A stretch of 64,000 nt of DNA from Candidatus Thorarchaeota archaeon (GTDB lineage: Archaea; Asgardarchaeota; Thorarchaeia; Thorarchaeales; Thorarchaeaceae). The notes beneath the pieces are model-generated. The model did not search any database and was not told the DNA's origin. It was given only the letters and a program-made list of their open reading frames with translations. The position numbers and the translations under genes are program-made. Positions 48,617 through 57,141 of this stretch are shown piece by piece (the first letter of the stretch is position 1; each line of letters starts with the position of its first letter). Location: the NCBI GenBank assembly GCA_029855935.1, contig JAGSHN010000019.1:1-64000 (forward strand), written 5' to 3'.

Positions 48617-48988
48617 TCAGTAGATGACCATGTCCTCACGACTCAGATAGGCCATCTCGAACTCGCCGGTCAGACGGAGGACATTTCGAGGGCAGGACTC
48701 GACGCACTGGTTGCACAGTGTGCATCGGTCGAAGTGACAGATTGGACGGTAGCCGGTCTTTGTCTTCACGTCCTCAGGCCGACACTCTATCATCTCAATT
48801 GCGCCGGAGGGGCATACTCTCTCGCAGATCTTGCAGCCGGTGCACTTGGCGGGCTCGGCGTACTCCCAGCGTCCTCTCAGCCCCTTGGGGATATTCAGTC
48901 CCCTCTTTGTCGCCGGATATACCACGGTGGCAGGCTTGGACACAGCACCCCTCAGCAGCTCTCTCTCCATCTTTCCGAGTCTTGGCAT
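48617..48988 (-). CDS. ferredoxin-like subunit (NuoI/HycF/EchF homologue) of the hydrogenase complex
   Basis: The 123-residue protein has two [4Fe-4S] motifs, C-T-G-C-K-I-C-E-R-V-C-P and C-T-L-C-N-Q-C-V-E-S-C-P, spaced about 40 residues apart as in NuoI. It is the sixth and last gene of the minus-strand complex and starts 4 bases after the NuoH-like gene. It would pass electrons from ferredoxin to the small subunit. The downstream gene is convergent (47595), so the cluster ends here, without NuoJ/K/L/M/N-like subunits. Confidence 0.87.
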   Translation of the reverse strand: MPRLGKMERELLRGAVSKPATVVYPATKRGLNIPKGLRGRWEYAEPAKCTGCKICERVCPSGAIEMIECRPEDVKTKTGYRPICHFDRCTLCNQCVESCPRNVLRLTGEFEMAYLSREDMVIY

Positions 48989-48992
48989 CTTC

Positions 48993-50084
48993 TCACACCA
49001 CCCCCAGCATCGGGAACACGTAGACCAGCGCGACCTGTACTATGAAGAGTGACAGGATGGCAAGCGGGACCATAACCCTCCAGGCGTAGCGCACAATCTG
49101 ATCGATACGCCATCGTGCGAATGCAGCCCGCATGTTCGACAGAATCACCACGACGACAGCGGACTTCAGCATGAAGACCAGCGGATAGTACACCCATCCG
49201 ACCCAGGTCGTCGCAGCCAGTGTTGCAAAGTCCACTGAGAACAGCCGGAGTGGGATGAACTCAAGCAGGTACGGTCCTCCGAGAAACAGCGTCGTCGCCA
49301 GTCCTGCGCTGTACACGAGAAGGATGTCCTCAGCGAGGTGAATCAGCGCGAGCTTCTTGCCACTGTACTCGACCTGCCAGCCATGAACAATCTCAGTCTC
49401 GGCGTGGCTCACGTCGAAGGGTATGCGCTCGAGCTCGGCCTCGCTTGTGATCAGGAATATGATGAAGGGTAGCATAAGCAGCCAGACGGTCGCAGGGCTT
49501 GACCGAACGAGGGTGTTCATTATGGTGCTGACGGACAGGCTACCCGCCAGAGTGGCAGGGATGATCAGGGCGATGATGAGCGGAATCTCAAAGCTGACCA
49601 ACAGCATACCCGTGCGTGCCGCCCCAGTCTGACCGAACGGGTTTGAGGAGAAGTATCCCGCGAGGATGATGAGTATTGCCACGAGGGTGCTGAGGAACAG
49701 TATCAGTATGAGGTCACCCTCAAAGCTCAGGATACCCTGAACGCCCGGCATGCTTGGGTTCACGTCCACCACTGGTAGGAACATGCAGAGGGTGAGGCTG
49801 AGAACCAGCATCACCACTGGGACTGCAGCGAATCCGCGTCCGTCGGCCTTCTCTGGCGTGAGGTCCTCCTTGCCCAGCAGCTTGAAGAAGTCCATCAGAG
49901 GCTGGAGGATTCCCCTCCATCCGGTGTGAAGCGGGCCTATTCGGTTCTGCATTCTCGCGTAGACCTTTCTGTCTACCCACTCCCAGAGGAGTGCCAGAGT
50001 TGTGATGAACAGGATTCCAGGAAAGACTAGGACCCAGAGTATCTGTAGGAGTATGTCCAGAGGCGTCGAGGCGAAGATCTGCAT
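48993..50084 (-). CDS. membrane anchor subunit (NuoH/HycD/EchB homologue) of the hydrogenase complex
   Basis: The 363-residue protein has eight or nine helices. NuoH landmarks are R-K-V-Y-A-R-M-Q-N-R-I-G-P (about 35-47), L-M-D-F-F-K-L-L-G-K-E-D (about 63-74), E-L-E-R-I-P-F-D-V-S-H-A-E-T-E-I-V-H-G-W (215-234 region) and Y-S-G-K-K-L-A-L-I. The Glu-rich loop is the link between the redox module and the membrane in all complex I and group 4 enzymes. It begins 4 bases after the large-subunit gene. Confidence 0.92.
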   Translation of the reverse strand: MQIFASTPLDILLQILWVLVFPGILFITTLALLWEWVDRKVYARMQNRIGPLHTGWRGILQPLMDFFKLLGKEDLTPEKADGRGFAAVPVVMLVLSLTLCMFLPVVDVNPSMPGVQGILSFEGDLILILFLSTLVAILIILAGYFSSNPFGQTGAARTGMLLVSFEIPLIIALIIPATLAGSLSVSTIMNTLVRSSPATVWLLMLPFIIFLITSEAELERIPFDVSHAETEIVHGWQVEYSGKKLALIHLAEDILLVYSAGLATTLFLGGPYLLEFIPLRLFSVDFATLAATTWVGWVYYPLVFMLKSAVVVVILSNMRAAFARWRIDQIVRYAWRVMVPLAILSLFIVQVALVYVFPMLGVV

Positions 50085-50088
50085 CTCC

Positions 50089-51318
50089 TCACTCCTCCCT
50101 CCTCGGGTGCATCTTGTACCATTTGTTCGCCCGGACGCGCATCACATCCAGTGGGACCAGCTCCATCGTATCGTCCTCGGCATCGACTATGACGACCCTG
50201 TCGGTGCAGCTGTAGCACGGGTCGATGGCTGCAAGGATTATCGGGGCGTCCGCGAGATAGTTTCCTCTCAGTGTGTGCGCCATCGATACCCAGTTGGCGT
50301 GAGTCGGCGCCCGCACCTTGATTCTCTCGGGCTTGTCGGTGCCGTTGGTCACCAGATAGTGAATGAGCTCTCCCCGCGGTGCCTCGTGACGTGCGAGGAC
50401 CTCGTTTGGCTGAATCCGCGGACGGACGCGCTCACGGATAGGGCCGTCTGGCATGTTCTGGAGCAACCAGCGGCACATATCGATTGCCTGCAGTGTCTCG
50501 ACGACTCTGACGACCGAACGGCCCGCGACATCGCATCTGTCACTGAGGACCATCTCGAAGTCGCCAGTGTCCATCATAGGTATGTAGGCCTGTGTCGGGT
50601 CATTGAATCTGACGTCAACCGGGACATTGCTCCCCCGTGCCGTGGGACCAACGGCGCCTGTTCTCTTTGCAACATCAGTCTCCAGAATTCCCACACCCGC
50701 GACGCGATCCCAGAAGGTCTTCTCATAGATGACGACATCGCGATAGTACTTCATTCGTTCCTCTAGCCTGTCGAGACCCCTCAACAGCCTCGGTACGAGT
50801 TCGTCTGGGACGTTTCTCCGTACACCGCCAACGGTGTTCATATCATGGTGAACCCTGTTACCTGAGATGCTCTCGAGCATGTCCATCACGACCTCGCGGT
50901 CGCGCCACGTGTACATGAACGCCGTGTCAAAGCCCACCTCGTGGAACGCCACGCCGAGCCAGAGGATGTGAGAGTGAATCCTATCGAGCTCCCAGATCAG
51001 TGTCCTGATGTACTTGGCCCGCTCCGGGATCTCGACCTCGGCGGCGAACTCCACGGCCTGGGCGTAGTTCCCGTTGTGAGTGGCGGAACAGATGCCACAG
51101 ATGCGGGCCAACAGGTACAGGTTCTGGATGTGAGTGTTGGACTCTGCGAGCTTCTCCACGCCTCTGTGATTATAGCCGATGTTTACCTCAGCATCGACTA
51201 TGTACTCACCCTCTATTGTCAGCTTGAACATCCCGGGCTCCTTCAGTGCCGGATGCTGTGGGCCTATCGGGATGGACACACGCGGTGGGATGACGACTCT
51301 CTTCTCTGTGCTGGTCAC
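50089..51318 (-). CDS. group 4 [NiFe]-hydrogenase large subunit (NuoD/HycE-C homologue) with intact nickel site
   Basis: The 409-residue protein is a NuoD homologue that keeps all four metal cysteines: L1 A-R-I-C-G-I-C-S-A-T-H (C74, C77, H81) and L2 D-P-C-Y-S-C-T-D-R (C368, C371). True complex I NuoD has lost them. The 35-residue tail after R374 matches the part removed by the maturation protease in HycE-type subunits (D-P-C-x-x-C-T-D-R is cut after Arg). The enzyme should therefore make or use H2 at a Ni-Fe site. A gap of 1 base separates it from the 30-kDa subunit gene. No hyp or protease genes are in the window. Confidence 0.92.
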   Translation of the reverse strand: MTSTEKRVVIPPRVSIPIGPQHPALKEPGMFKLTIEGEYIVDAEVNIGYNHRGVEKLAESNTHIQNLYLLARICGICSATHNGNYAQAVEFAAEVEIPERAKYIRTLIWELDRIHSHILWLGVAFHEVGFDTAFMYTWRDREVVMDMLESISGNRVHHDMNTVGGVRRNVPDELVPRLLRGLDRLEERMKYYRDVVIYEKTFWDRVAGVGILETDVAKRTGAVGPTARGSNVPVDVRFNDPTQAYIPMMDTGDFEMVLSDRCDVAGRSVVRVVETLQAIDMCRWLLQNMPDGPIRERVRPRIQPNEVLARHEAPRGELIHYLVTNGTDKPERIKVRAPTHANWVSMAHTLRGNYLADAPIILAAIDPCYSCTDRVVIVDAEDDTMELVPLDVMRVRANKWYKMHPRREE

Positions 51319-51319
51319 T

Positions 51320-51889
51320 CTACATCTCCTCCCTTGGCTTGGGTCCTGTTGTCTTCGAACGCTCCATCAGTCCACGCGGGTCGGACCAGTCCTTGCGCAG
51401 AGGATACTCGCCTCTTGGCCAGTTCTCAGGCAGTTCGCAGCGTCTCGGGTTCGGGTGGCCGACGGGGACTATTCCGAAGAGCTCCCGGATCTCGTTCTCC
51501 ACGAACTCCGCGCCCGGTACGAGGTCGGTGATCGACGGATACTCTGGCCTGTCACGTGGGACGTTGACCCTGATTGTGATGGCGACTCTCTGGCTGTTCA
51601 GGAAGAAGTGATAGTTTGCCTGCAGCTCCTCTCCCAGGTCCCTGCCTGAGAGTGTGCCGAACTGCCACATATCGTGTTCCCGCTGCATGTACTGGATGAA
51701 CTCTCTGAGCCTGTCCGGATGAACCCTCACGAAGACCCTCCTCGGCTGGACATGTACATAGCACTCGTCGACCACAAGGGCGTCGCCCATATCGGCAATG
51801 ATCCTGTCCAGTATCTCATACTCCGTCTTGTGGGTGTCGTCGCGTGGTGCTGGGCGCCTCTCGGTCGTCTCTGCCTCTACACTGCTCAT
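51320..51889 (-). CDS. 30-kDa subunit (NuoC/EchD/HycE-N homologue) of the hydrogenase complex
   Basis: In this 189-residue protein the NuoC fold ends with the typical P-S-I-T-D-L-V-P-G-A-E-F-V-E-N-E-I, then F-G-I-V-P-V-G-H-P, and N-W-P-R-G-E-Y-P-L-R-K-D-W. It overlaps the small-subunit gene by 4 bases (ATGA), showing translational coupling. It contacts the large subunit in the peripheral arm. The N-terminal 25 residues are charged and variable. Confidence 0.9.
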   Translation of the reverse strand: MSSVEAETTERRPAPRDDTHKTEYEILDRIIADMGDALVVDECYVHVQPRRVFVRVHPDRLREFIQYMQREHDMWQFGTLSGRDLGEELQANYHFFLNSQRVAITIRVNVPRDRPEYPSITDLVPGAEFVENEIRELFGIVPVGHPNPRRCELPENWPRGEYPLRKDWSDPRGLMERSKTTGPKPREEM

Positions 51890-52416
51890 ATCTCAGCCAC
51901 CTCCGTCTCGATAGTGCCGCACTCTGGTGATGGTGGTGCGGGCTCCTCAAACTCGGGGGCCAGCTGTGCAGGCTCCACTCCCATCATGTCGGCCAGCACC
52001 CTCAGGAGCTGGTACGCACCGTAGGTGATTGCTGCTGGCTTAGGCGGACAGCCTGGGATGTAGGCCGTCACAGGGATTGCTTGGTCAACGCCACCGAGGA
52101 CATTGTATGCCCCTCTGAACACTCCCCCACTACAGGCACACGACCCGACCGCGACCACATACTTCGGTTCGGCCATCTGCTCGTAGATTCTCTGTAGTCG
52201 TGGCTTGATCTGCTCTGTGACGGGTCCGGTGCACAGCATTATGTCAGCGTGACGCGGGCTTCCGACGAGCTTGACACCAAACCGCTCAAGGTCGAGTCGC
52301 GGCATCAGGGCGGCAATTATCTCGATGTCACAGCCGTTGCAGCTCCCACTATTGAAGTGGAACACCCACGGCGACTTCACCTTCGCCTTGTTGAAGAGTC
52401 TCTTCAGGAATCCCAT
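51886..52416 (-). CDS. hydrogenase small subunit (NuoB/HycG/EchC homologue)
   Basis: The 176-residue protein carries the proximal [4Fe-4S] site: S-G-S-C-N-G-C-D-I-E (C26, C29), G-S-C-A-C-S-G-G (C93, with C95 nearby) and P-G-C-P-P (C123). The C-x2-C form is the hydrogenase version; complex I NuoB has two adjacent Cys there. It follows the NuoA-like gene by 21 bases and overlaps the 30-kDa subunit gene by 4. It hands electrons between the ferredoxin subunit and the Ni-Fe site. Confidence 0.92.
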   Translation of the reverse strand: MGFLKRLFNKAKVKSPWVFHFNSGSCNGCDIEIIAALMPRLDLERFGVKLVGSPRHADIMLCTGPVTEQIKPRLQRIYEQMAEPKYVVAVGSCACSGGVFRGAYNVLGGVDQAIPVTAYIPGCPPKPAAITYGAYQLLRVLADMMGVEPAQLAPEFEEPAPPSPECGTIETEVAEI

Positions 52417-52437
52417 GTGTGATGCCCTCCTTGTTGT

Positions 52438-52776
52438 TCACTCATTCTCCGGTGTATGAGACACGTAGGCTGCAGCCACAAGCGTGATGATCAGGTACAC
52501 AATGACAACCAGTCCGGGGTTCGACCATGAGAGAAAGAGAACGAAGCCGATGATATCGAACAGCATAAAGTACAGGGCGTAGTTGAAGAAGTGCAGATGG
52601 AACTGCACCTTTCCACCCAAGAACGCGGGCTCTCCACAGGCGTAGGCCTCAACGGCAGCGCCTGTCCTCCGGGAGGGTGGTGCATATGCCCTCCCCATCA
52701 GGAGGAGCATCCCCGCAAAGATGAGGCTCAGTGCAACGACCAGTATGAGTCCCAGTACCAGCTCCATGCCTACCAC
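52438..52776 (-). CDS. nuoA: NuoA-like membrane subunit, first gene of the hydrogenase cluster
   Basis: The 112-residue protein has three helices (about 5-28, 61-82, 85-106). Between the first two it has A-V-E-A-Y-A-C-G-E-P-A-F-L-G-G and V-Q-F-H-L-H-F-F-N-Y-A-L-Y-F-M-L-F-D, the Y-x-C-G and F-x-x-x-x-L-x-F-x-x-F-D signatures of NuoA/NdhC/FpoA. Canonical group 4 hydrogenases such as Ech, Hyc and Mbh lack NuoA. Its presence at the head of a hydrogenase operon is unusual. ATG at 52776 lies about 38 bases after a TATA-like box. Confidence 0.9.
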   Translation of the reverse strand: MVGMELVLGLILVVALSLIFAGMLLLMGRAYAPPSRRTGAAVEAYACGEPAFLGGKVQFHLHFFNYALYFMLFDIIGFVLFLSWSNPGLVVIVYLIITLVAAAYVSHTPENE

Positions 52777-52962: not shown

Positions 52963-53502
52963 CTATGGAGGCTGTTCTGCATCTCCACTCTCTAGATGCC
53001 TGCGGTAGATCTTGGCCAGCTCAATGTAGGACTTGGCCCCGACGGCAAAGGCGTTCTTTAGGGTCTCGGAGACCTCCTTGACGACCTTTCCAGGGATGCC
53101 CAACACCAGCGAGTTTGGCGGTATCACCGTGTTCTCGGTCACCACTGCTCCCGCACCGACGACACTATCATCACCGACCTTGGCCCCTGTGAGAACAATG
53201 GCGCCAATGCCCACAACACATCTGTCGCCAATCTCACACGCGTGGATGACCGCATTGTGCCCAGCGGTGACATAGTCGCCGATGTAGGCGCCATTGCCGA
53301 AGGTGGTGTGCACGGTCACATTGTCCTGTATCGAGGTGCCCTTTCCCACCCGGATCTCGTTCATATCACCGCGCAGGACGGCAAACTCCCAGATGGAGGT
53401 GTCTTCGTCGACCTCGACATCGCCAATCAGTGACGCTCTGGGCGACACGTACGCCCGTGGATGGACTCTTGGAAACTTGTCCTCGAAGCGGTACAGTCCC
53501 AA
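52963..53502 (-). CDS. gamma-carbonic-anhydrase-like hexapeptide-repeat protein
   Basis: The 179-residue protein has a left-handed beta-helix of I-G-D/V-G-x hexapeptides (I-G-D-V-E-V, I-R-V-G-K-G, I-G-D-Y-V-T, V-G-I-G-A-I). The three metal His of gamma carbonic anhydrases are in place: H65 (V-T-V-H-T-T), H82 (A-G-H-N) and H87 (V-I-H-A). A C-terminal helix follows. Related proteins bind zinc, iron or CoA esters. It lies upstream of the hydrogenase cluster on the same strand with a 186-base gap. CO2 hydration is plausible, but many members are inactive. Confidence 0.85.
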   Translation of the reverse strand: MGLYRFEDKFPRVHPRAYVSPRASLIGDVEVDEDTSIWEFAVLRGDMNEIRVGKGTSIQDNVTVHTTFGNGAYIGDYVTAGHNAVIHACEIGDRCVVGIGAIVLTGAKVGDDSVVGAGAVVTENTVIPPNSLVLGIPGKVVKEVSETLKNAFAVGAKSYIELAKIYRRHLESGDAEQPP

Positions 53503-54239: not shown

Positions 54240-54800
54240 CTACGAGGCCTGTGTCAAGGCTCTCTCTCCAGCCTTCATTCCCAGCTCCAGAGCCTTGAGA
54301 TTAGTCTCGGCGAAACGCGGCCATCGTTGAACTATCCGGTCCTTGAGTCCCTCAATTGAGACGGCCTTGGTGATGACAGAGAAGGCACCGAGCATCACCA
54401 CGTTGGTCGCCTGCTTTGTGCCGACCTCCTTGTCTGCAATCCTTGTTGCGGGTATCTTGTACACCCTGACCCCCCTCGGTAGGTCCCCCTCAATCTCCAC
54501 GAGGTCCTCATCCACTATCAGGACGCCGTTCTCCTTCAGACCATCCTTGTACGACAGGTAGGCTGCCCTGCTCATCGCGATGAACACGTCGGGCTCCTGT
54601 ACCTTTGGATAGTCGATCTCCTCCTCATCGTCCATCACAACCTCGCCCTTGCTCGCACCGCCTCTGGCCTCTGGACCGTAGGACTGTGTCTGCACAACGA
54701 ACTTTCCGTCGTAGAGAGCTGCGGTCTCTCCCAGTATTACTGCCATCGTCACTATGCCCTGTCCGCCAAAGCCAGCTATCCTGATCTCATATCGGGTCAT
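54240..54800 (-). CDS. korC: 2-oxoacid:ferredoxin oxidoreductase gamma subunit
   Basis: The 186-residue protein begins R-I-A-G-F-G-G-Q-G-I-V-T-M-A, then T-Q-S-Y-G-P-E-A-R-G-G-A-S-K-G-E, the standard gamma-subunit signature. It is the last gene of korDABC and overlaps korB by 4 bases (ATGA). The subunit helps bind CoA in the complex. Length is normal for separate gamma subunits. Confidence 0.93.
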   Translation of the reverse strand: MTRYEIRIAGFGGQGIVTMAVILGETAALYDGKFVVQTQSYGPEARGGASKGEVVMDDEEEIDYPKVQEPDVFIAMSRAAYLSYKDGLKENGVLIVDEDLVEIEGDLPRGVRVYKIPATRIADKEVGTKQATNVVMLGAFSVITKAVSIEGLKDRIVQRWPRFAETNLKALELGMKAGERALTQAS

Positions 54801-55648
54801 CGGGCCTCACTCCTTGCCTTCTCTTGGGCCTTCTTCAGGACCTCCGTGTACTCGGGCTTGTCGATATCTACAAACTCCCCACAGACAATCCTTGAGTCGT
54901 ATTCGAGCTCGGCCTCGTGTGGCGGAAGTCCGTTCTGGATGTCTGCGACCTTGAGGAGGTGTCTATGCATCTCCACGCCATCACCCAGTCTGTTGCTCCT
55001 TCCGTACGATGTGGGACAGGCACCTACTATCTCAACAAATGAGAAGCCCCTCTTCGCAATGGCCTTCTCAATCGACTTGGTCGCTCTTCTCACTTGGACT
55101 GCCGTCCAGCGTGCCACAAAGGTGGCCCCCGATGAGGCCGCGAGTTTGACGAGGTTGAATGGCCATTCGATGTTTCCAATCGGCCGTGGACTGGTCTGTG
55201 TGTATCTCTCGTGTTCGGTGGTCGGACCGAACTGACCACCAGTCATCCCATAGTTGAAGTTGTTGAGGCACACGACCGTGATGTCGATGTTGCGTCTGCA
55301 GGCATGAATCAGATGATTACCACCGATTGCAGCAATGTCGCCGTCACCTGAGACCACTATCACCTCAAGCTCTGGATTGGCTATCTTGACGCCCTCCGCA
55401 AATGCGATTGGGCGGCCGTGCGTTGTGTGGAACGTCCCGGTCTTGAAGTATCCCGAGACGCGTCCCGTGCAACCTATGCCTGAGACTATCACGACCTTGT
55501 TGAAGTCTATTCCGAGATTCTCTATGGCCCGGGCGACCATACCGGTCACTATTCCGATCGAGCAGCCGGGACAGTAGATCCATGGCAGCCTGTCGGTACG
55601 CATGTACTTGGCCAGCGGATGTACGAGAGTGTCAGACTCTGTAGTCAC
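54797..55648 (-). CDS. korB: 2-oxoacid:ferredoxin oxidoreductase beta subunit (TPP-binding)
   Basis: The 283-residue protein has the Cys pair C-P-G-C (26-29), I-G-C-T-G-R near 58-63, and the thiamine pyrophosphate motif G-D-G-D (101-104) with N-N (129-130). It also has Y-G-M-T-G-G-Q-F-G-P-T-T, the pattern of 2-oxoglutarate-type enzymes. It decarboxylates the 2-oxoacid and sends electrons to the FeS subunits. It overlaps korA by 4 bases. Substrate assignment to 2-oxoglutarate is based on family resemblance. Confidence 0.93.
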   Translation of the reverse strand: MTTESDTLVHPLAKYMRTDRLPWIYCPGCSIGIVTGMVARAIENLGIDFNKVVIVSGIGCTGRVSGYFKTGTFHTTHGRPIAFAEGVKIANPELEVIVVSGDGDIAAIGGNHLIHACRRNIDITVVCLNNFNYGMTGGQFGPTTEHERYTQTSPRPIGNIEWPFNLVKLAASSGATFVARWTAVQVRRATKSIEKAIAKRGFSFVEIVGACPTSYGRSNRLGDGVEMHRHLLKVADIQNGLPPHEAELEYDSRIVCGEFVDIDKPEYTEVLKKAQEKARSEAR

Positions 55649-56781
55649 TGTGTAACGACCTCCCTTATCTTCTGCAGTATCTCCTGTGGCAGCTGTGGGG
55701 TCCCCACGGGCTTCCTCATCATATGCACGGGGGTAGTCCCTGCGCTTGCTCGTACCATATGATAGAGCTGGCCCATGTTCTGCTCAGCCACAACTATATG
55801 ACGCACCTCGCTTGCAAGGTCCATTATGGCCCGCTCTGGGAACGGCCATATGGTCTTGAGCCTGAGCAGTCCTGCCTTGAGCCCCTGCCTACGCGCCTCA
55901 CGAATGGCCCTCTTTGCGCTGCGTGATGGAGTACCGTATGCTATGATTGCGACATCAGCGTCGTCGAGTTGGAATCTCTCCATCTCCACGATCTTGTCGA
56001 CATTCCTGAGTATCTTCTCGTTGAGCCTAGTGATCAGCTCCATCTGAACGTCGTCCTTGTCCGACGGATAGCCTCTCCAGTCGTGAGTGAGACCTGTGGC
56101 GTAGAACTGATACCCCGACCCGAAGGTCGCCATTGGTGGGACGAGGTCTTCGTCTGGCTTGAAGGGAAGGTACTCCTCCGGTGGCACTGTGGGCCGTTTG
56201 CGATCTACAATCTCAAGGTCCTTCTCATCCGGGATGACGAGTTTCTCTCGCATATGACCAACGGTCTCGTCCGCGAGGACAAAGACTGGCACCCGGTATT
56301 GTTCAGCAAGATTGAACGCCCTGACTGTCTGGTCGAACATCTCCTGCACAGATGCGGGCGTGAGAGCAATGATCTGGTAGTCTCCGTGGCTCCCCCACTT
56401 GGCCTGCATCACATCGCCCTGCTGCCCTCTCGTCGGCTGTCCAGTGCTCGGACCGCCTCTCATTATATTGACGAGGACGAGTGGTGTCTCGGTCATCACA
56501 GCAAGCCCGATGGCCTCCATCATCAGGCTGACACCCGGTCCTGAAGTGGCAGTCATCGCCTTTGTTCCTGCCCAAGACGCACCAATCACACTGGTTATCG
56601 ACGCAATCTCATCTTCATACTGGACATAGGCGCCACCGACCTGTGGCATCCGGATTGCCATCCACTCCGCAATCTCCGTTGCTGGCGTGATGGGATATCC
56701 TCCGAAGTACCTACAGCCAGCACTCAGCGCGCCCTCCGCACAGGCGACATCGCCCATTGTGAACATCACCCGCTCTGGCAA
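55645..56781 (-). CDS. korA: 2-oxoacid:ferredoxin oxidoreductase alpha subunit
   Basis: The 378-residue protein carries A-C-A-E-G-A-L-S-A-G-C, F-G-G-Y-P-I-T-P-A-T-E-I, E-D-E-I-A-S-I-T-S-V-I-G-A-S-W, T-S-G-P-G-V-S-L-M and G-Q-P-T-R-G-Q-Q-G-D, all landmarks of KorA-type alpha subunits. The C-terminal half contains the pyruvate-ferredoxin-oxidoreductase domain II. It follows korD without a gap, overlapping korB next. The complex oxidises a 2-oxoacid with CoA, giving acyl-CoA, CO2 and reduced ferredoxin. Confidence 0.94.
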   Translation of the reverse strand: MPERVMFTMGDVACAEGALSAGCRYFGGYPITPATEIAEWMAIRMPQVGGAYVQYEDEIASITSVIGASWAGTKAMTATSGPGVSLMMEAIGLAVMTETPLVLVNIMRGGPSTGQPTRGQQGDVMQAKWGSHGDYQIIALTPASVQEMFDQTVRAFNLAEQYRVPVFVLADETVGHMREKLVIPDEKDLEIVDRKRPTVPPEEYLPFKPDEDLVPPMATFGSGYQFYATGLTHDWRGYPSDKDDVQMELITRLNEKILRNVDKIVEMERFQLDDADVAIIAYGTPSRSAKRAIREARRQGLKAGLLRLKTIWPFPERAIMDLASEVRHIVVAEQNMGQLYHMVRASAGTTPVHMMRKPVGTPQLPQEILQKIREVVTQ

Positions 56782-57141
56782 CTACTCGTCCTCCTCCTTC
56801 TCTCTCTTTGCACGCTCCTGCTCGAACTCCGGGATCAGTGTCCCCTCCTGAAGCGTTCCCTTCTCGTATGCCTCTCGTGCCTTCTCTCTCTCTGTCAAGA
56901 AGATCGCCATATCCGGGCATATTCTCTCACAGAACTCGCAGTTCACACACGCATCAATGTCGCACGCCGTGACGGGATGGTACCCCTTCCGGTTGTACTT
57001 GCTCATATCGAGACACAGCACATTCTTCGGGCAGAACTCAACGCAGAGGCCGCACTGCTTGCACTGCTCTTGGAGAATGACCAGAACCTTCTCTCTCTTT
57101 CTGGCCGGTCTTGGTACTATTGGTCTGCGGACGGTTGACAT
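56782..57141 (-). CDS. korD: 2-oxoacid:ferredoxin oxidoreductase delta subunit, 2x[4Fe-4S]
   Basis: The 119-residue protein has two clusters: C-K-Q-C-G-L-C-V-E-F-C-P and C-V-N-C-E-F-C-E-R-I-C-P. A basic N-terminus and a charged C-terminal helix (K-R-E-K-E-E-D-E) flank them. It is the first gene of the korDABC operon; korA follows directly. It passes electrons from the TPP centre to external ferredoxin. An AT-rich TATA-like element (CTTATAG on the minus strand, 57236-57242) lies about 95-101 bases upstream. Confidence 0.92.
   Translation of the reverse strand: MSTVRRPIVPRPARKREKVLVILQEQCKQCGLCVEFCPKNVLCLDMSKYNRKGYHPVTACDIDACVNCEFCERICPDMAIFLTEREKAREAYEKGTLQEGTLIPEFEQERAKREKEEDE

Follow-up and report, generated by a model that had tools for sequence, protein, structure and literature searches.

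NuoA is usually treated as a subunit of complex I and Fpo only. P. furiosus Mbh (6cfw), a ferredoxin-driven enzyme with a Ni-Fe site, is not known to have a NuoA, and the same applies to Ech, which includes a NuoL-like subunit, EchA. E. coli FHL-1 and FHL-2 (Hyc and Hyf) are formate-linked and likewise lack NuoA. A 2026 profile study using the COG database found no protein that could be recognised as a relative of NuoA (PMC13399641). Freyarchaeia and Atabeyarchaeia have a complex I-like group 4 hydrogenase akin to those of Odin-, Heimdall-, and Hermodarchaeia, according to James et al. (2024), who modelled its structure, noted the lateral helix HL, which Mbh lacks, and called group 4g polyphyletic (PMC11291895). 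According to a 2021 paper that cited earlier work, Heimdall- and Odinarchaeota were the only other Asgards in which group 4 had been identified (PMC8163825). The main text of PMC11291895 names neither NuoA nor a split of the genes in Thorarchaea, and among open-licence papers we found no account of a [NiFe]-hydrogenase with NuoA, nor of the Thorarchaeal split.

The window, i.e., the whole stretch of 64,000 nucleotides that was analysed, belongs to contig C8 of a Thorarchaeal genome (G000; 2.97 Mb, 97% complete). An earlier note on this DNA had proposed a six-gene [NiFe]-hydrogenase at 48617-52776, and this was borne out by six contiguous minus-strand ORFs in the order A-B-C-D-H-I, overlapping or closely spaced (Table 1), each scoring above the cut-off for its expected family in a Pfam profile search. 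The C-x2-C claimed for the small subunit was present as G-S-C-N-G-C. The NuoH-type membrane subunit and the 30-kDa and NuoB-type partners of D in the operon placed the enzyme among group 4 [NiFe]-hydrogenases.

Table 1. Genes of the hydrogenase operon and its oxidoreductase neighbour, in window coordinates
Feature	Position	Strand	Remarks
NuoA-like subunit A	52438..52776	-	112 aa, GTG start, 3 predicted TM helices, YACGE loop; PF00507 33.3 bits
Small subunit B (NuoB/MbhJ-like)	51886..52416	-	C-x2-C; PF01058 114 bits
30-kDa subunit C (NuoC-like)	51320..51889	-	PF00329 88.9 bits
[NiFe] large subunit D (NuoD/MbhL-like)	50089..51318	-	PF00346 199 bits + PF00374 55
NuoH-like membrane anchor H	48993..50084	-	PF00146 257.7 bits
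NuoI-like 2x[4Fe-4S] subunit I	48617..48988	-	Fer4 families; TIGR01971 NuoI 77 bits
Presumed 2-oxoacid:ferredoxin oxidoreductase (KOR; gamma, beta, alpha, delta)	54240..57141	-	Neighbour, no subunit

The closest relatives were Thorarchaeota MAGs. As far as contigs reached, the gene order was kept in 15 named loci of Thorarchaeota and other Asgard MAGs, and therefore this is no chance arrangement. The neighbouring genes, which we take to encode KOR, lay close to the operon in nearly all named Thorarchaeota loci where the contig extended that far, suggesting reduced ferredoxin as the electron donor, with KOR as its likely source. Directly upstream of the NuoA gene, on the same strand, is a gamma-carbonic-anhydrase-like hexapeptide gene (52963-53502). 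Gamma-carbonic anhydrases are complex I subunits in plants; this gene was dropped as a part of the operon because its immediate linkage to NuoA was seen only in the closest relatives.

The large subunit retained all that had been claimed for it: Ni-ligand cysteines at C74, C77, C368, and C371, forming both CxxC motifs of group 4 [NiFe]-hydrogenases, and the motif DPCYSCTDR followed by a 35-residue C-terminal tail. E. coli HycE has the same motif with a 32-residue tail, and is cleaved after its Arg. In contrast, the D of complex I is without the tail and the four Ni cysteines (E. coli and Thermus have none of them), and its GPQHPSTHG-type motif (HP-x-THG) stands where the Thorarchaeal D carries GPQHPALKE. 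Of the maturation proteins, the genome encoded HypD, the Hyp protein searched for, and one C-terminal endopeptidase of the HycI family, whose substrates may instead be other hydrogenases encoded there. The genome contained two D-type subunits in all, the second being the Ni-less one of a complex on contig C31, with C-x2-E and a second motif without Cys. Other Ni-less Asgard D subunits had C-x2-S / C-x2-E (family f21) or C-x2-D / C-x2-D (f2 and f13), and those of L128, L129, L130, and L132 kept one Cys of each CxxC pair; such partial retention is suggestive of a stepwise loss of the Ni site.

Scores against solved structures, along with the presence of a NuoA, supported the hydrogenase/complex I mosaic that had been proposed. 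D matched Mbh best (299, compared with 272 for FHL and 213 for Thermus Nqo4), as did B (MbhJ 174.6 bits, HycG 138, complex I about 121), making Mbh the nearest solved relative of both. H matched NDH-1 (about 129 bits) and Thermus (120) above MbhM (87) and HycD (79), and the L subunit encoded on contig C28, described below, matched NdhF (386 bits) and E. coli NuoL (270) above MrpA (213) and MbhH (121). The catalytic core is hydrogenase-like, with B and D nearest Mbh, and the membrane arm (A, H, L) is complex I-like.

The NuoA-like subunit was weak in sequence terms, at 33.3 bits against a PF00507 cut-off of 23.3, but it carried the Y-A-C-G and F-D signatures noted earlier, and YACGE was retained in nearly every Asgard homologue. 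An AF2 model was of low confidence (pLDDT 61), with three long helices at the expected places. Judged by profile and motifs, A is a real NuoA homologue. An HMM search found NuoA-like genes near such D genes in families f1, f2, f3, f4, f6, f11, f12, f13, f15, f16, f17, f21, f23, and f28, a list that includes Ni-less complexes (f2) and weak scores. About a dozen Asgard families have hydrogenases with a NuoA. As to whether such operons are widespread and already characterised, they are widespread in Asgards, and the type has been modelled but, by the modelling paper's own statement, not confirmed by biochemistry (PMC11291895).

The operon contained none of L, M, N, J, or K, and none lay beside it in the named Thorarchaeota loci. 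The earlier observation that antiporter subunits were missing was therefore true of the locus but not of the genome, as a search for nuoJKLMN-like genes found a J1-J2-K-L-M-N module at G000:C28:167283-173321. Residues 10-660 of its NuoL aligned to residues 6-607 of E. coli NuoL, almost as far as the C-terminus, including a segment that, by alignment only, matched the lateral helix HL and terminal TM helix, so that C28 appears to encode three antiporter subunits with HL on L, a feature of complex I and Fpo. All tested key Lys/Glu/His positions were kept in L, and all but one His (Q) in N, for which the HyfB match scored above NuoN. M kept E144, K234, K265, H348, and E407, with Q at K173 and H322, and K kept E36, with the second NuoK Glu, E72, replaced by I. 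No N-module or FpoF was seen at either the C8 or the C28 locus. Since the genome also encodes the missing ion-pumping half, at a second locus, the enzyme resembles a complex I relative of full size that has kept the [NiFe] active site. We consider it probable that A-B-C-D-H-I and J1-J2-K-L-M-N together make up a complete, 12-polypeptide, ferredoxin-linked, ion-pumping group 4 [NiFe]-hydrogenase of complex I architecture, whose genes are split in Thorarchaea. The genes, their motifs and pumping residues, their co-inheritance, and their adjacency in relatives are observed, whereas physical assembly, stoichiometry, the direction of H2 turnover, and the ion are inferred.

Because the module lay on a different contig and its L, M, and N are homologous to Mrp subunits, it could serve another partner or act alone, either as an independent Na+/H+ antiporter or as a spare arm for the complex on C31. 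We consider this very unlikely. The genome held seven antiporter-type genes in two clusters (one of the genes being listed in two pieces), and C31 encoded a self-contained Ni-less complex, A-J-K-C-D-H-I-M-L-M-N, whose own arm (J, K, L, M, M, N) led us to reject C28 as its partner; the C31 complex was also present in many genomes without the C28 module. No D, B, H, or I lay beside the C28 module, leaving it without a partner except the C8 operon. Against an independent antiporter, L was NuoL-like by its NdhF and MrpA scores, and no MrpE, F, or G was recognised beside the module. An equally improbable reading is that the operon encodes an antiporter-free, six-subunit hydrogenase with the reduced ion-pumping module that the earlier note had suggested, relying on A and H alone. 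The operon's own gene content would fit this, and E. coli FHL-1 and Ech operate with a single antiporter-like subunit. However, the reading was contradicted by a full J1-J2-K-L-M-N module with pumping residues and HL that was perfectly co-inherited with the operon, contiguous with it in relatives, and had no other partner.

Co-inheritance was assessed in 46 genomes of the same family, searched with the C28 NuoL. Orthologues of it (67-84% identity) occurred in 18 of the 46, the source genome included, and a C8-type D at or above a threshold of at least 75% identity occurred in exactly the same 18, one D being a contig-end fragment. The other 28 had neither at the set level, and two of these (G020 and G055) carried a 70-71% D with a divergent arm alongside. 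Fisher's test gave p 3.5e-13, a figure inflated by shared ancestry; the exact probability within the four varying genera was 7.6e-6. Co-inheritance falls short of proof that the C8 and C28 products physically associate.

Gene arrangement in other Asgard genomes provided a further line of evidence. In genus g4 of the same family (L083, L084), A-B-H, J1-J2-K-N-L-M, KOR beta and gamma, and C-D lay within ~12 kb. The two halves were divergent neighbours in L086 and were also adjacent in L078 and L082; families f11 and f16 had J-K or J-K-L beside B-C-D. In family f23 (L085 7835-18322), the genes formed a single run, A-B-C-D-H-I-J1-J2-K-L-M-N. The two Thorarchaeal loci are thus most readily understood as one complex whose genes came apart, an ancestral single cluster having probably been divided in this lineage.

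Several unusual proteins were seen in the course of the analysis. Single ORFs of ~667 aa matching D, NuoB, and NuoI domains, a fused core, occurred at L129 8550-10550 and L130 10268-12274, and C-D fusions were found in some Asgard hydrogenases (L087 8403-10145, L134 9876-11627, L140 9968-11773). The source genome also contained a cluster resembling a group 3b (sulfhydrogenase-type) [NiFe]-hydrogenase (L043 710-4886; G000:C2). About 3.2 kb upstream of the Ni-less C31 operon and adjoining a CCG-type Fe-S protein, a gene at G000:C31:20843-22783 (L042 3844-5784, minus) encoded a 646-aa protein that joins a GlcD/lactate-dehydrogenase-like FAD domain at its N-terminus to a NuoB domain at its C-terminus. 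Thorarchaeal genomes other than this one (L127, L131, L133) have the protein at 78-81% identity. No literature report matching this protein was found; with the C31 operon, it possibly forms a 2-hydroxyacid-driven complex I.

The best explanation of the operon is that it encodes the catalytic and connecting half of a larger complex. Ferredoxin reduced by KOR and other oxidoreductases would deliver electrons at subunit I, the presumed entry point, from which they would travel by way of B to the Ni-Fe site in D, where protons would be reduced to H2. The A/H/J/K junction would pass the energy on to L (with HL), M, and N, three antiporter-like subunits predicted to export H+ and/or Na+. The ferredoxin-driven H2 evolution that the earlier note had suggested is thus plausible from the conserved KOR neighbours.

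Compared with known systems, this enzyme would resemble complex I, NDH-1, and Fpo in its membrane arm (A, H, J, K, L with HL, M, N) and in its B, C, D, and I core, differing from complex I in the Ni cysteines and tail of D. Mbh, so close in B and D, matched much less well in its M and H subunits (87 and 121 bits) than did complex I and NDH-1 H and L. Ech shares six genes and the hydrogenase B/C/D/H/I equivalents, but has EchA among its six, whereas the Thorarchaeal operon has NuoA as its sixth gene and its antiporters elsewhere. FHL-1 and FHL-2 are alike in the HycE motif and tail, but their NuoH-like subunit fell on the opposite side of the NuoH tree. The Asgard type of PMC11291895 shares the group 4 core and the complex I-like arm with HL; its genes lie together with those of Hdr, a group 3 hydrogenase, and ATP synthase in a single syntenic block, whereas the Thorarchaeal genes occupy two loci, the first beside KOR.

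All trees were unrooted, Fpo, TACK 4g, and Thermococcal 4g sequences were left out, and a complex was taken as NuoA-less from its fetched locus only. In the D tree, the Ni-less sequences (complex I, C31-type, f21, and f2/f13) formed one side (100/99). When the NuoA-less hydrogenases were all constrained to group together, the likelihood was slightly better than that of the free search (p-AU 0.59); the data thus permit a single division by NuoA, short of proving it. The NuoH tree, built without MbhM, made this division unconstrained, separating NuoA-bearing complexes (Asgard hydrogenases and complex I) from NuoA-less hydrogenases (99/99.7), with complex I and the C31/f21-type sequences as a clade (100/99) among the NuoA-bearing ones. 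This is consistent with NuoA having preceded the loss of Ni.

A recent capture of NuoA from true complex I, which would make it uninformative on history, is unlikely, if slightly less so than the alternatives weighed above. The genome does carry a separate complex I-like operon that includes a NuoA (C31), part of what the earlier note said would refute its reading, and single-subunit trees may mislead. Yet the NuoA tree set hydrogenase NuoAs, including that of the window, apart from complex I and C31 NuoAs at 100/99.6, with long-branch warnings, and the NuoH tree divided by NuoA presence. The evolutionary intermediate that the note had envisaged is unproven, but both trees put NuoA-bearing hydrogenases beside complex I. 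We tentatively suggest, as a possibility rather than the likelier course, that NuoA-bearing Asgard hydrogenases preserve an H2-making stage with complete complex I architecture (NuoA, complex I-type NuoH, HL-bearing NuoL, M, and N), and that a later loss of the Ni site, inside this group or next to it, gave rise to respiratory complex I.

With the split-locus enzyme, Thorarchaea gain a predicted ion-pumping hydrogenase. A [NiFe]-hydrogenase of complex I architecture also bears on the origin of complex I, and the NuoA-bearing Asgard hydrogenases offer direct sequence material for the old question of the order in which the parts of complex I were gained. They suggest that loss of the Ni-Fe site came after the membrane arm had been completed.
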